A DNA stretch of 64,000 bases from NCBI RefSeq assembly GCF_002104475.1, contig NZ_NBOF01000001.1:310001-374000 (forward strand), read 5' to 3'. The DNA is from Cognaticolwellia mytili. Its GTDB lineage: Bacteria; Pseudomonadota; Gammaproteobacteria; Enterobacterales; Alteromonadaceae. Shown piece after piece: positions 32,702 through 40,029 of the stretch. The notes beneath the pieces were generated by a model that searched no databases, was not told the DNA's origin, and saw only the letters and a program-made list of their open reading frames with translations. A program made the translations under genes and the position numbers. Position 1 is the stretch's first letter; every line of letters begins with the position of its first letter.

Positions 32702-33910
32702 ATGAAAATTTATCTTATTAAAGCCTCTGCTAGCAGTGATTATTCAAAGTATAAAGCTGAAACTGGTGGGCCACCACAAAATATTTTTGCAGCGGCAGCA
32801 GCAACTCCTAAATGTTATCAACTTGAAATGGTTGATGAAACTATAGGTATGAAAACTGATTTCTCCTCAGATGCTGATTTAATTGTGATATTTGCCTCTA
32901 CTCCTGATGCATATCGGGCTTATGAAATTTCAAAGAAGTTTATTGAACTAGGAAAAACCATCGTGCTTGGTGGGTTACACGTTATGTTTAATCAACAAGA
33001 AGCCGAGGAACATAGTCATGTGCTTATTTTGGGGGAAGTTGAAAACTACTGGGAAGTGTTGCTGAATGATTTTCAAAGTGGGAATTTGAAAAGCGTATAT
33101 GAAAGCAAAACGCCACTAGATTTAAGTCAACTCAACCCTTATCCAACAGAGGTAATTACGCCCCAAAAATATAATTATACTTGGTCGGTTGTTGTGACAC
33201 GTGGTTGTCCTTTTAAATGTGACTTTTGTTTAGTGCATCAATTCTTTAATAAATTTCAAATGAGGCCCATTGAAAATATTGTTGACGAATTACGGCAATT
33301 AAAATCACTGGGTGTGGAGTGGGTTGAGCTTCATTCAGATAATCTCACTCATAACAGAGACTATGCAATTGAGCTCTTTAAAGCGATAGCTCCAATTGGC
33401 TTGAAATTCTATGGCGAAACCACCGTGTTAGTAGCGCGTGATGAAGAAATGTTGCAAGCAGCAAAAAAAGCAGGCGTCAAAGCCCTATTACTAGGAATAG
33501 AAACACCTTCACTCGAAGCATTAAAAGCTCAGAAAAAGGGCTTTGTTAAACCAGACAAAATGAAAGGTTACATGGAAATTATTAAGAAATATAACATTGA
33601 AGTTTGGGGCGATTTCCTATTTGGCTTTGATGAGCATACACCAACAATATTTCAAGAAACGGTAGATTTTGTAAAAGATATTAAAGTAGATAAAGTGATC
33701 CCGCATTTTATGATCCCATTTCCGGGATCTGAATCCTTTAAAAAGTTAGATTTAGATAACAGAATTTTAACTAAAGACTGGTCAAAATATGATGGTAGCC
33801 ATTCTGTATACCAACCTAAAAATATGTCTACCACTGAGTTAGAGGACGGTGTTTATTGGGTATGGAAGCAAACATCTAGCTTAATGGAAAAGTTAAAATA
33901 TATTTTTTAA
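32702..33910 (+). CDS. Cobalamin-binding-type radical SAM protein
   Basis: A 402-aa radical SAM enzyme. The N-terminal part (1 to about 140) has a Rossmann-like B12-binding-domain pattern (DLIVIFAST, then IVLGGLHVMF). The radical SAM core follows, with the iron-sulfur cluster motif CPFKCDFC (CxxxCxxC) near residue 168, LHSDNLTHN near 213, and ALLLGIETPS near 262. The reaction cannot be told: class B methyltransferases and ring-forming enzymes share this layout. It precedes an ABC membrane-domain gene by 54 bp on the same strand, likely one operon. Confidence 0.8.
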   Translation: MKIYLIKASASSDYSKYKAETGGPPQNIFAAAAATPKCYQLEMVDETIGMKTDFSSDADLIVIFASTPDAYRAYEISKKFIELGKTIVLGGLHVMFNQQEAEEHSHVLILGEVENYWEVLLNDFQSGNLKSVYESKTPLDLSQLNPYPTEVITPQKYNYTWSVVVTRGCPFKCDFCLVHQFFNKFQMRPIENIVDELRQLKSLGVEWVELHSDNLTHNRDYAIELFKAIAPIGLKFYGETTVLVARDEEMLQAAKKAGVKALLLGIETPSLEALKAQKKGFVKPDKMKGYMEIIKKYNIEVWGDFLFGFDEHTPTIFQETVDFVKDIKVDKVIPHFMIPFPGSESFKKLDLDNRILTKDWSKYDGSHSVYQPKNMSTTELEDGVYWVWKQTSSLMEKLKYIF

Positions 33911-33964
33911 CTAAAGTTTGCCATCAGAATTAATAAATATAAAAATTGGGAAAAGATTAAGTCC

Positions 33965-34810
33965 ATGCAGGATACTTATATATTAAAAACCATTTTCTAC
34001 CGATTTAAATGGCAAATATCGTTAACTTTAAGCTTAGTTATTATTGAAGCTGTTTTGGGAATTTTTTATCCCTTACTTATTGGTGTTGCTATTAATGACT
34101 TACTAAAAAATAGCCATCAAGGTCTATATTGGCTAACTGTTTTAGGGGCTTTATCTTTAATCATAGGTACAGTGAGGCGTTTTTACGATACCAGAATATA
34201 TGCAAATATTTATCGCAAAACAGCGAGTAACATGGTTGATACCGAACATAAAAAGTTGCGTTCCGTATCAACTATTTCTGCTCGGAGTCATTTAATGACA
34301 GAATTTGTAGAATTTCTTGAAAATTCTATACCTGAGATTGTGCAGTCAATTATAGCTATTATCGGCATATCTATAATCATAGCAATGCTAAATATTCAGG
34401 TGTTTTTTGCTTGTTTGGCATTATTATTATTAATAGCGAGTATTTACTTGCTGACAGGAAATAAAAACTTCAACTTAAATAAAAGTTATAACGATGAATT
34501 AGAACGACAGGTCCAAGCCATTGAGAGTAAAAGCAACACGAAAAGCAAACAGCATTTCAATGCATTAATGCGCTGGAATATAGCTTTATCGGATTTAGAG
34601 ACTACTAATTACTTTATTGTCTGGTGTGGCGTAATTGCGCTTTTCATCTATACCCCCATGACAGTTATTCGTGATGGTGTATTAACCTATGGTTTAGTTT
34701 TTTCTATTCTCATGTATGTTTTTGGCTACATCGAAAAGTTAACATTAATGCCTTTGCATATTCAGCAAGCGATTCGTTTAAATGAGATCTCTCAACGTTT
34801 ATCTATGTAG
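33965..34810 (+). CDS. ABC transporter six-helix membrane domain without ATPase
   Basis: A 281-aa membrane protein of the type I ABC exporter membrane domain, with about six hydrophobic helices. YDTRIYANIYRKTASNMVD near residue 78 resembles the intracellular coupling region. It stops before any ATP-binding domain: no Walker A or signature motif is present, and no ABC ATPase gene lies in the window. This fits the stand-alone six-TM ABC membrane family, whose mode of action is unclear. The radical SAM gene directly upstream may be functionally linked. Confidence 0.72.
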   Translation: MQDTYILKTIFYRFKWQISLTLSLVIIEAVLGIFYPLLIGVAINDLLKNSHQGLYWLTVLGALSLIIGTVRRFYDTRIYANIYRKTASNMVDTEHKKLRSVSTISARSHLMTEFVEFLENSIPEIVQSIIAIIGISIIIAMLNIQVFFACLALLLLIASIYLLTGNKNFNLNKSYNDELERQVQAIESKSNTKSKQHFNALMRWNIALSDLETTNYFIVWCGVIALFIYTPMTVIRDGVLTYGLVFSILMYVFGYIEKLTLMPLHIQQAIRLNEISQRLSM

Positions 34811-35232
34811 AACTGGGTAGAGTGAATAAAAAATCACCTACGTTTCAAAATATTCTAAGTCAGTTTGTCCCTCCTTACAAAAGCTAATCACGAAAACCTC
34901 CAATATACCTTCTAAATCTAAACAATTATTGCGCTCAGTTTTATTTAATATTGAGCTGAAAAGTGACTTGAATTATCACAATATGGCAAGTAAAACTATA
35001 GCACCTAAAACAGTGCAATTATTGTACGCCTAAAAATGCCAACTAACTGTGAGACATATCTCACATTTATGTAGGATATGTTGCTAGTGTAAGGCTTTAG
35101 AATACCATGAGGTGATCGTAAGTTATTGTATTTTAACCTGTTATTTTTCTTTGTCGTTGTTGTGTTTGGATATCACTGTTTTTATTTGTAAAAAGTTCCT
35201 TTGAAAAATTAGTGATTGTTCTAATATTACAA
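34811..35232. other. Regulatory region upstream of the first CsrB-like RNA
   Basis: A 420-bp non-coding stretch that contains the GacA/UvrY-type palindrome at 35048-35065 and a TAATAT -10-like box at 35222-35227. No open frame of note. Confidence 0.5.
35048..35065. promoter_or_regulatory. GacA/UvrY-type upstream activating site
   Basis: TGTGAGACATATCTCACA is an 18-bp perfect palindrome that closely resembles the UvrY/GacA site known upstream of csrB and rsm RNAs. Its centre lies about 177 bp before the predicted transcript start, matching the roughly -180 position known in Pseudomonas and enterics. Confidence 0.75.
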
Positions 35233-35537
35233 CTGTCAGGACGACATGAGGTTTACCTCAAAAGGTAGGTAACTACCAGAAGGACGCTTAGTATAGCGAA
35301 GAGATAGGATATCTCGCAAGGATAGATGGAAACGTTGTCAAGGAAACGTCATCAGGATGATGAAATATAGGCAACAGATGTAACTTGGAGTTACTGTTAG
35401 GGATTAACAAGGACAGCAAATGATTTGCTAGGATAGGCTAAGGATAGCTCTTTATGGATGAAGCGGGATCATTATTTGTTATGCAGGATGCATAAAAGCT
35501 AGTTATAGAAATGCGGTTCGTTGAACCGCATTTTTTT
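35233..35537 (+). ncRNA. csrB: CsrB-family CsrA-sequestering RNA (first copy)
   Basis: A predicted RNA of about 305 nt with no open frame and about 15 GGA motifs, many in hairpin loops. Examples are GAGAT-AGGAT-ATCTC (35301), TCATC-AGGAT-GATGA (35350), GTAAC-TTGGA-GTTAC (35380), TGTTA-GGGAT-TAACA (35396), GCTA-AGGA-TAGC (35438) and TATGC-AGGAT-GCATA (35480). It ends in a strong intrinsic terminator (35509-35537). These RNAs bind and titrate the translational regulator CsrA. A GacA-type palindrome lies upstream, and the interval syd-truC is where E. coli csrB lies. The exact 5' end is inferred from the -10-like box. Confidence 0.88.
35509..35537 (+). terminator. Terminator of the first CsrB-like RNA
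   Basis: AAATGCGGTTC-GTT-GAACCGCATTT followed by T's; a strong intrinsic terminator 34 bp before the end of the convergent membrane protein gene. Confidence 0.9.
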
Positions 35538-35570: not shown

Positions 35571-36707
35571 CTAATACTCTATCAGGTTTGCATAAAATTC
35601 TGTTTTACTCAATGTAGACTGACTTCCTTTTAAAGAAAATTCATATCCACACAAAGAAAACTTTCTCTTAAAGGCAATGTTTTTAACTAATGTGGTGGTA
35701 TCCAAGGGAGAGAAGTAAGCAAAGTATTGGTTGTTATTTTCTATCTTTACTTGATAGCTACGAATTGTATCACCTTTATAGAATTGGATATTTTGACAAC
35801 TACTGTCTCCTTGTGCATTTTCAATACTCCATAAATCTTTATTTTCCGTATTATCTGTCTGCCAGCTGATCACTAAACCATTGTATGTCGACACCATCAG
35901 AGAAAAATTATCAGGTAAAATAATATGATGAAGTAATTCAACTTCCGCAGCTTTCGAGTCTACAACTTGTGTATTCTCCGTTTTGGTAGAACTACTGTCA
36001 TCTGTAAAAATTGATGAAATAATAATGGCTAAAAAAAGTAAAACCCCAGCAATAGATACGGTCATTCGAGCATTTCTGTTGCTAAAAAGTGCTAGGCGAA
36101 TTGATTCACCAATATCACCGTGCTGCCCAGGGGGATTGGTATTTTCAGCGCCATTATAATGAGAGCTTTGTATGTTAGAAACGCTACGCGAGTTCGTTGT
36201 TGATATGCAACTTTGTTCAGAGTGAATAGGTTGCTCTATTGCACTTACTTGATGCATTGTCGGCTCTATCCGTTGACTTGTTCGGGAACAACTTTGTGCT
36301 TTCTGTAAATACTGAGATAAGTCAATCGGGCCACAATAGCCTAGAATATAGTGTCGCGCTTTAGCATTAGGGTATGTTAGCAATAATAATGATAACAATA
36401 ATGGAATAATTAATAGCCAATAAATACTACCATGGCCAATGAGTATGATGACTATCCCCGAGATTAAAAAGCTAGCTGTTGGTGCGAGTACCCAATTACG
36501 ATGTAATTCAGCATCGTTTAAACGGCGTTGTGTCGCTATAACATATAATGAAAGACAAATGAATAAGCTAGCCAAAGCCGCTAATGTGGTATCAATAAAA
36601 ATTTCATTTAAAACAATGAAGCCAAGTAAGCAAGAGAAATTGATAGTGATAAAACGAACGCGGCTATCAAAACCGCGTAAACAATATAATGACTTTAAAA
36701 ATTGCAC
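35571..36707 (-). CDS. DUF805-like membrane protein with extended C-terminal region
   Basis: A protein of about 378 aa. The first 110 residues look like DUF805, with four hydrophobic helices and QRRLNDAELHRNWVL, the RRLxD motif of that family, near residue 60. A Ser/Gln/Asn-rich linker (about 140-210) and a further membrane helix (about 218-236) follow, and then a domain of about 140 residues, probably periplasmic, with a Cys pair. I start at the GTG at 36707, which has GGAGG 4 bases upstream; an upstream in-frame ATG at 36731 lacks one. It lies between the two CsrB-like RNA genes. Confidence 0.65.
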   Translation of the reverse strand: MQFLKSLYCLRGFDSRVRFITINFSCLLGFIVLNEIFIDTTLAALASLFICLSLYVIATQRRLNDAELHRNWVLAPTASFLISGIVIILIGHGSIYWLLIIPLLLSLLLLTYPNAKARHYILGYCGPIDLSQYLQKAQSCSRTSQRIEPTMHQVSAIEQPIHSEQSCISTTNSRSVSNIQSSHYNGAENTNPPGQHGDIGESIRLALFSNRNARMTVSIAGVLLFLAIIISSIFTDDSSSTKTENTQVVDSKAAEVELLHHIILPDNFSLMVSTYNGLVISWQTDNTENKDLWSIENAQGDSSCQNIQFYKGDTIRSYQVKIENNNQYFAYFSPLDTTTLVKNIAFKRKFSLCGYEFSLKGSQSTLSKTEFYANLIEY

Positions 36708-36731
36708 AAAACCTCCGGTAAAAGCTAGCAT

Positions 36732-37117
36732 AATATATTAAAAATATTAGCGTTTTTGTTAGCTTGGAAAACATGCAAAAACTGCATAGCAGGGAGGGTA
36801 ACGAATTTTGTCCGTGATGTCAGTGTATCGCTGAAATTTGTTATATTTTTCTGTTGCAGCTGAAATTTTCTGATGATTCAAGCCAGTGACAATATGTAGT
36901 TTAACTGTGGTATTCTGTAATTCCGTTTATCTTTGTAAGACATATCTGCAATCGCTGTCCGTTGATACGTACTGATTTTGTTATTTATGCGTACGATAAT
37001 TCTATCTAATTGATTTAAACGTATTTTAATTTTTTATTGTTACTGGTTATCTAATGAGTAGTAAAAAATAATATTATAAGGGTATTTTGCATAACTCAAT
37101 TCAGTAAACTTACTCAG
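36732..37117. other. Regulatory region upstream of the second CsrB-like RNA
   Basis: A 385-bp non-coding stretch. It must hold the promoter of the DUF805-like gene (minus strand) and contains the degenerate GacA-type site at 36934-36951. TTGCAT at 37088 is a possible -35 box. Confidence 0.45.
36934..36951. promoter_or_regulatory. GacA/UvrY-type upstream site (second copy)
   Basis: TGTAAGACATATCTGCAA shares the TGT.AGACATATCT core with the site at 35048 and keeps the TGTAAG half of the GacA consensus. It lies about 175 bp before the second RNA's predicted start, the same spacing as the first. Confidence 0.62.
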
Positions 37118-37371
37118 GTCAAGAAGACACAGGGTTACGGAAAACCTTTAGTATAGTGACTAGTATTGGATGCATAGTCACTATTGTGTAAAAGGATATA
37201 CATTTATTAACAGGGCAGTTATACACTTAAGCTAGATTCGATACGGATATCATGCAGGATGCATAAGTTATTTATGGAATGAATAAACATTTATGGAAGA
37301 TTAGCTAAGGATTAGCGGAACAATAATCTAGTTAAGTGTTAAAAAGAAAAAGCGACTTTATGTCGCTTTTT
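37118..37371 (+). ncRNA. CsrB/CsrC-like CsrA-sequestering RNA (second copy)
   Basis: A predicted RNA of about 255 nt with about 9 GGA motifs, several in loops: GGTT-ACGGA-AAACC (37134), a 9-bp stem TAGTGACTA/TAGTCACTA enclosing TTGGA (37155-37184), GATA-CGGA-TATC (37240), ATGC-AGGAT-GCAT (37252) and GCTA-AGGAT-TAGC (37304). It ends in an intrinsic terminator (37347-37371). The ATGCAGGATGCATAA element is shared with the first copy. Fewer motifs and the different length suggest a diverged paralogue, comparable to CsrC or RsmY/RsmZ pairs. The 5' end is uncertain. Confidence 0.8.
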
Positions 37372-37374
37372 CTT
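37347..37374 (+). terminator. Terminator of the second CsrB-like RNA
   Basis: AAAAAGCGAC-TTTAT-GTCGCTTTTT followed by CTTT; a 10-bp stem intrinsic terminator, also usable by the convergent DUF3301 gene. Confidence 0.9.
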
Positions 37375-37444
37375 TGCCTGATTTTTAATAAAAAATATGT
37401 CTATATACGAACAGGTGATATTGTTTAAACTCTAAAGTTAGTAC

Positions 37445-39261: not shown

Positions 39262-40029
39262 ATGACAATTGAAAATGCTGGTGCGGTGATCCTTGAAAAG
39301 CCCGTTTTAACTATATTATATCAAGATGAATACCTAGTAGCAGTTGATAAACCTGCAGGGCTTTTCGTGCATCGTAGCTTTATGGATAAAGATGAGATTT
39401 ACTTTGCATTACAGCTTATTCGTGACCAAGTTGGACAATATGTTTATCCGTTACATCGTCTTGACCGTCCAACCTCAGGGGTTTTACTTTTCGCCTTATC
39501 ACAAGATATTGCACGTTTAATGGGGCAGGCTTTTAGCGAAAGAAATATTCATAAAACTTATTATGCGCTAACGCGTGGGCACTTATTAGGTGATGGTTTG
39601 GTTGATTATGCGTTAAAAGAAAAGCTAGATGACATGGGCGATAAAAATGTTAGTCGCGATAAAGAAGCACAAAGTGCTCAAACGCATTACCAGTCGATAG
39701 CTACAGCGACTTTACATGTACCGTTAGGTAAATACCCGAGTGTGCGATATTCATTGGTTAAATGTCAGCCTCGTACTGGGCGCCGCCATCAAATTCGTCG
39801 ACATTTAGCTCATCTTCGTTATCCGATTATTGGCGATATTAACTATGGTGATAATAAACAGAATCCATTTTTTGGTGAGAATTTTGGCTTTAAACGTTTG
39901 ATGCTCATTGCTAAAAGTTTAAACTTTATTCATCCGATAACGCAGCAGGAACTTACCATTAGTGCGAAGTTTGATATGCAGTGGCAACAAGTGCTTAATG
40001 AATTGAATTGGCAAGAATTAAATTTGTAA
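39262..40029 (+). CDS. truC: tRNA pseudouridine(65) synthase TruC
   Basis: TruC makes pseudouridine 65 in several tRNAs. The 255-aa RluA-family enzyme has the catalytic motif HRLDRPTSGVLLF with Asp68, KPAGLFVHRS near 30, and RTGRRHQIRRHLAHLRYPIIGD near 172 (quoted in key part RTGRRHQIRRHLAHLR). The HRLDRPTSG form is specific to TruC. E. coli truC is part of the yqcC-csrB-syd neighbourhood, consistent with the CsrB-like RNAs nearby. Confidence 0.94.
   Translation: MTIENAGAVILEKPVLTILYQDEYLVAVDKPAGLFVHRSFMDKDEIYFALQLIRDQVGQYVYPLHRLDRPTSGVLLFALSQDIARLMGQAFSERNIHKTYYALTRGHLLGDGLVDYALKEKLDDMGDKNVSRDKEAQSAQTHYQSIATATLHVPLGKYPSVRYSLVKCQPRTGRRHQIRRHLAHLRYPIIGDINYGDNKQNPFFGENFGFKRLMLIAKSLNFIHPITQQELTISAKFDMQWQQVLNELNWQELNL

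Follow-up and report, generated by a model that had tools for sequence, protein, structure and literature searches.

A probable CsrB-type small RNA and a second Csr-like RNA in a 64-kb window of the Cognaticolwellia mytili genome

The question raised by this locus is whether a GGA-rich intergenic stretch of the Cognaticolwellia mytili genome (35233-35537, forward strand) encodes an RNA of the CsrB kind, which titrates the regulator CsrA, as had been proposed by the initial annotation. Positions refer to the window, namely the whole stretch of 64,000 nucleotides that was analysed (Table 1). The stretch was found to very probably encode a CsrB-type small RNA, a known kind of regulator. This is supported by a full-length alignment to the Rfam CsrB model, a UvrY palindrome, conservation and covariation within the genus, and the presence of CsrA, UvrY and BarA homologues.

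Table 1. Features of the csrB region, with window coordinates and the basis of each assignment
Feature	Position	Strand	Basis
UvrY/GacA palindrome TGTGAGACATATCTCACA	35048-35065	.	exact match to TGTRAGN6CTYACA; present in 16/16 orthologues
TGTAGGATAT block, 4 bp after palindrome; resembles the E. coli csrB block TGTAGGAGA	35070..35079	+	sequence, genus alignment, comparison with PMC4682653 as described there
IHF-like block (tentative)	35119..35131	+	consensus match; same place in 15/16 orthologues
Sigma-70-like promoter TTGAAA N16 AATATT (putative)	35201..35228	+	consensus scan; both hexamer regions conserved in genus alignment
CsrB-type RNA (very probable), 15 GGA	35231..35537	+	RF00018 alignment, fold, GGA count, orthologues, covariation, unpaired GGA
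Intrinsic terminator of CsrB-type RNA	35507-35535	+	13 pairs; conserved in alignment A1
Half-degenerate UvrY palindrome TGTAAGACATATCTGCAA of second RNA	36934..36951	.	similar site in 8/8 copies judged intact
Second Csr-like RNA, 9 GGA	~37114-37375	+	fold, CsrC match, covariation, unpaired GGA
Intrinsic terminator of second RNA	37343..37375	+	14 pairs
truC homologue	39262..40029	+	NF008321 345.8 bits, cut-off 328

Motifs, fold and conservation of the GGA-rich RNA

Counting on the forward strand of 35233-35537 gave 15 GGA, 10 AGGA and 9 GGAT motifs, in agreement with the approximately 15 GGA initially reported. Dinucleotide-preserving shuffles of this sequence reached 15 GGA in 3 of 2000 cases and 10 AGGA in 0 of 2000. 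On the forward strand (mean 1.9 GGA), each of the twelve listed 305-nt places richest in GGA overlaps this segment, while the best such place on the reverse strand of the window holds 8 GGA. These motifs are mostly unpaired, their mean unpaired probability being 0.81, whereas the remaining G and A of the RNA would lead one to expect 0.35; values are above 0.6 for 14 of the 15. The fold had a z-score of -3.44, with 1 of 100 shuffles being equally good. No complete ORF of at least 25 codons was found on the forward strand inside 35233-35537, and this, along with the terminator, is consistent with the open reading frame-free unit first described, the boundaries of which were correct to within a few bases. 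Judged from its sequence, the RNA appears to be a separate non-coding unit that lies between genes and is closed by a terminator of its own, and its predicted 5' end would give it a length of approximately 305 nt.

Searching of the 64-kb window with Rfam at curated thresholds returned no match. With the threshold lowered, the CsrB model (RF00018) aligned to the RNA over its full length with 43.2 bits (E 2.2e-10), which is below the curated cut-off of 71 bits and causes the RNA to be missed by a standard Rfam scan. Of the check that had been suggested, an Infernal match together with an RNA of about 300 nt, the match was thus obtained only below threshold. When RF00018 was compared to the whole 4.5-Mb genome (E<=10), two places only were returned, namely this RNA and 37216-37377. 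Weak matches to the L20 leader, RefA9, STnc130, AgrB, STnc250 and others were below their cut-offs, lay mostly over terminators and were read as terminator look-alikes.

A search of 60 genomes (that of C. mytili and relatives) with RF00018 gave matches at E<=0.001 in 24 and passed the cut-off in 9; under its strict filters it detected 4 of the 17 genomes of the genus, compared to 16 of 17 by DNA search. Among 15 orthologue loci that were scored (L038-L051, L053), 12 matched RF00018 at E<=0.1 with 23.2-44.8 bits, one of the other three matched PrrB_RsmZ and two matched no Csr family, with none of the 15 reaching the RF00018 cut-off. Two of these loci (L038 and L040) also matched RmaA with 34.8 and 35.7 bits (cut-off 57). 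These sub-threshold scores, together with the detection of only 4 of 17 genomes, indicate that Rfam is a poor detector of csrB in this genus, and the public RF00018 model can be regarded as having a gap in Colwellia, where the standard threshold misses csrB.

A csrB orthologue was found by DNA search in 16 of the 17 genus genomes, the sole miss being an assembly that is 66% complete (G007), with GGA counts ranging from 15 to 20. Fifteen of the 16 orthologues were aligned (A1), that of G012 being omitted for an inserted repeat. A conserved stem-loop structure was found, consisting of 68 pairs in 12 helices, formed in 98.2% of alignment cells, a percentage that is favoured by the structure having been derived from A1 itself. 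Pairs changed on both sides numbered 10, compared to 3.0 in shuffles (0 of 500 reaching 10) and 0-4 in slid controls; counts of further pair types were not above those of shuffles (497 of 500 reaching the value). The csrB of G012 (L096:3093-3470, reverse strand; 378 nt, 20 GGA) carries in tandem three copies of a GGA hairpin module that occurs once in the others, its number of GGA having been altered by duplication of this module.

Upstream elements, partner proteins and gene neighbourhood

The strongest support for the CsrB reading was found outside the coordinates initially given, in the form of the palindrome upstream of the RNA. It is centred 178 bp ahead of the first hairpin, and it was found in all 16 orthologues (exact in 12, with one mismatch in G001, G002, G005 and G010) at 176-179 bp from the first hairpin. 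In E. coli K-12, the csrB palindrome was measured at 182 bp from the annotated RNA end; the Colwellia distance runs to the first hairpin and the E. coli distance to the RNA 5' end, so that the two rulers differ slightly. In E. coli csrB as described in PMC4682653, TGTGAGAGATCTCTTACA has its centre at -183/-182 and is followed by TGTAGGAGA at a spacing of 5 bp. Elsewhere in the C. mytili genome, the pattern TGTRAGN6CTYACA was matched exactly at one other site (C12:49011), which was rejected as marking another csrB, being inside a 593-aa ORF with no GGA cluster seen by eye in the stretch inspected. A pattern of the form TGTAAGN8CTTACA was also discarded, having the wrong spacing and fewer matches than chance.

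In an alignment of the 16 upstream regions, islands of conservation coincide with the palindrome and the TGTAGGATAT block, with a TAA...TTG block and with both the -35 and the -10 region. The TAA...TTG block (-111 to -113) resembles an IHF site, and at this position it ranks first or second among the matches in 15 of the 16 orthologues; in C. mytili itself the match was no better than in shuffled sequence (191 of 200 shuffles matching equally), and its assignment is therefore tentative. The sigma-70 consensus scan, by which the putative promoter was identified, gave no more sites than shuffles did.

The combination of palindrome and first hairpin was also searched as a pattern in one genome per species (84,980 genomes), with 37 stretches being returned. 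Records titled Colwellia, Candidatus Colwellia, Thalassotalea or Litorilituus accounted for 35 of them, and the other two were from an uncultured Alteromonadaceae and from Endozoicomonas sp. G2_1 (L105), a record which bears a signature of the Colwellia/Thalassotalea type and may be misnamed. Four stretches (L097, L107, L108 and L118), from Colwellia sp. 12G3, two C. psychrerythraea records and an uncultured Colwellia, contain two exact matches each, 0.8-1.2 kb apart, as tandem csrB copies. A family-wide search with a pattern that misses the C. mytili csrB by design returned 18 of 196 genomes; the search drew 8 of the 17 genus genomes and was not used for counts.

The partners expected of a CsrB RNA, CsrA and BarA/UvrY, were found in the genome. 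CsrA (91.4 bits) is closest to PDB 1y00 and is identical to E. coli CsrA at 53 of 60 residues. The UvrY homologue is 69% identical, with the next regulator at 24%. A 936-aa frame with an sCache_4 domain (E 1.1e-41), a domain that among 14 control genomes gave a match only in E. coli, is named here a putative BarA homologue by its domain and gene type.

On the E. coli map csrB lies beside yqcC and truC, and a truC homologue was identified 3.7 kb downstream of csrB in C. mytili, with ORFs for DUF3301 and DUF3549 proteins and one ORF without a family in the interval. Just upstream of csrB (32702-34810, forward strand) are a radical SAM protein and then an ABC-transporter membrane-domain protein, for which Pfam gave no ATPase domain. 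An ORF on the opposing strand (35571-36731) ends 34 nt from the csrB RNA; its DUF805-like label was withdrawn, as Pfam and NCBIfam give no family.

A second RNA and the weighing of alternatives

Like the palindrome, a second Csr-like RNA located approximately 1.6 kb downstream of the csrB RNA was missed by the initial annotation. Its GGA motifs (n=9, with AGGA n=3) have an unpaired probability of 0.78, and its fold had a z-score of -5.2 (0 of 200 shuffles equally good). A 15-mer (ATGCAGGATGCATAA) is common to both RNAs. The centre of TGTAAGACATATCTGCAA lies 175 bp from the hairpin of the second RNA, the distance being 174-189 bp across eight copies; the pattern locating these half-palindromes was written after several had been seen.

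Sixteen genomes of the genus carry csrB. The second RNA was judged intact in eight of them, in six it was read as a remnant, and in two the site lacks it, this sorting being by eye and from the counts given here. Intact copies occupy this place in G000, G015, G002, G011, G005 and G004, and lie elsewhere, beside apparently the same DUF3301 gene, in G014 and G010. In the six remnant genomes (G013, G012, G008, G009, G006 and G001) the 14-base half-palindrome was not found within 2 mismatches, and a terminator pattern preceded by 2-5 GGA was found in four; nothing recognisable was found at the site in G003 and G016. In these eight genomes (L083, L085, L086, L087, L089, L093, L095 and L096) csrB is intact, and copies of the second RNA elsewhere in them were sought by DNA search only.

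Could the csrB RNA be a structured small RNA with some other main function, such as pairing with mRNA, its richness in GGA being secondary? Its score below the Rfam cut-off would allow for this, as would single hairpins so invariant in sequence that covariation cannot judge them. However, 15-20 GGA are kept in all 16 orthologues, the GGA are unpaired, a UvrY palindrome stands at the distance typical of csrB, and apart from the two RmaA matches below cut-off, Rfam returned only matches of the CsrB clan and terminator-like ones, so that such a function is very improbable. Even less credence can be given to a cis-acting leader or an antisense RNA of a neighbouring gene. The intergenic position, with the opposing ORF ending 34 nt away, might suggest one, but the gene that follows is encoded on the other strand, and the RNA is terminated ahead of that gene without overlapping it.

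For the second RNA, the alternative to be considered is that of a decaying, non-functional copy of csrB. The RNA has weak Rfam scores, with 15.7 bits for CsrB (E 0.06 in the whole-genome search, at 37216-37377) and 17.8 bits for CsrC (RF00084; E 0.0043, cut-off 61), the latter model matching at E<=1 in two of seven loci with copies judged intact. Its 9 GGA with 3 AGGA, its half-degenerate palindrome and the remnants in 6 of the 16 genomes are also what decay would leave. Against this, the stems of the eight copies judged intact (alignment A2) covary, with 8 pairs changed on both sides compared to 4.1 in shuffles (1 of 500 reaching 8), their GGA stay unpaired (mean 0.72 vs 0.39), and the half-palindrome and terminator are kept, making decay unlikely. 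Formally, both RNAs fall outside their Rfam families (43.2 < 71 bits for RF00018, 17.8 < 61 bits for RF00084), which bears on how they are labelled rather than on how they would act.

The best explanation as a whole, to which a probability of approximately 0.93 is assigned, is thus a UvrY-activated CsrB-type RNA titrating CsrA, with a second RNA alongside. Given the motifs, conserved structure, promoter elements and partner genes observed at this locus, we infer transcription of the RNA, binding of UvrY, and binding and titration of CsrA along the following lines. The BarA kinase would phosphorylate UvrY, which would then bind the palindrome some 178 bp upstream of csrB and activate transcription of an untranslated RNA, roughly 305 nt long, that ends at its own terminator. 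This RNA would offer around 15 GGA, mostly in hairpin loops and linkers, to several CsrA dimers, drawing CsrA off its mRNA targets. The role of major control point proposed for it would follow, by analogy, from membership of the CsrB family.

The second RNA probably works in parallel to csrB from a weaker UvrY site. While csrB retains a full palindrome and at least 15 GGA in all 16 genomes, the half-palindrome of the second RNA is asymmetric in all eight intact copies. Tentatively, the two may form a graded pair, in which the second RNA, owing to its asymmetric site, depends on a higher level of phosphorylated UvrY or on a different partner, sets a second threshold for CsrA release and has been discarded repeatedly within the genus wherever such a threshold is dispensable, a possible reading that is on balance doubtful. 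The second copy, with its uneven retention, is the most interesting feature of the locus and is newly described here.

Comparison with known Csr RNAs

No described csrB for Colwellia was found in the literature searched, and an earlier sequence-based prediction may exist. Sequence-based prediction of csrB was reportedly carried out in a 2006 study. The main text of a paper on a machine-learning predictor (PMC5568370) does not name Colwellia. The Colwellia RNAs are best read as new members of the known kind of CsrA-sponge RNAs. Together with BarA, UvrY and CsrA, the two sponge RNAs would make up a complete candidate Csr switch for these cold-sea bacteria, and relatives in which the second RNA is intact, degenerate or missing offer a means of testing why several Csr RNAs are retained by bacteria.

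By the same measure as used above, E. coli CsrB has 22 GGA with an unpaired probability of 0.80. The RNA described here resembles it in its many unpaired GGA, the upstream palindrome with a TGTAGGAGA-type block beside it and the nearby truC. It differs in carrying 15 GGA in about 305 nt, in being AT-richer, in scoring below the RF00018 cut-off and in being separated from truC by other genes.

In Shewanella oneidensis, csrB1 and csrB2 are described as being separated by one gene (a transposase), each of about 420 nt and with a UvrY box, their expression falling more than 100-fold without barA or uvrY (PMC3171408). Going by that description, the arrangement of two RNAs with one gene between them is shared with C. 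mytili, in which the second RNA is shorter and its box half-degenerate. Pseudoalteromonas fuliginea is described as having the Csr RNAs Pf1, Pf2 and Pf3 with 25, 21 and 9 GGA; its authors report that neither Pf1 nor Pf2 had a significant match beyond Pseudoalteromonas and that Pf3 had a partial match in Thalassotalea sp. LPB0316, with Colwellia not being named in the passages concerned (PMC11882849). It is, on the same account, a marine relative that likewise carries several Csr RNAs. The csrB1-4 copies of Vibrio tasmaniensis are reported to have been gained by duplication and to be regulated differently (PMC6262261). In contrast to the V. tasmaniensis copies as reported there, one copy in the present case is intact, a remnant or absent within a single genus.
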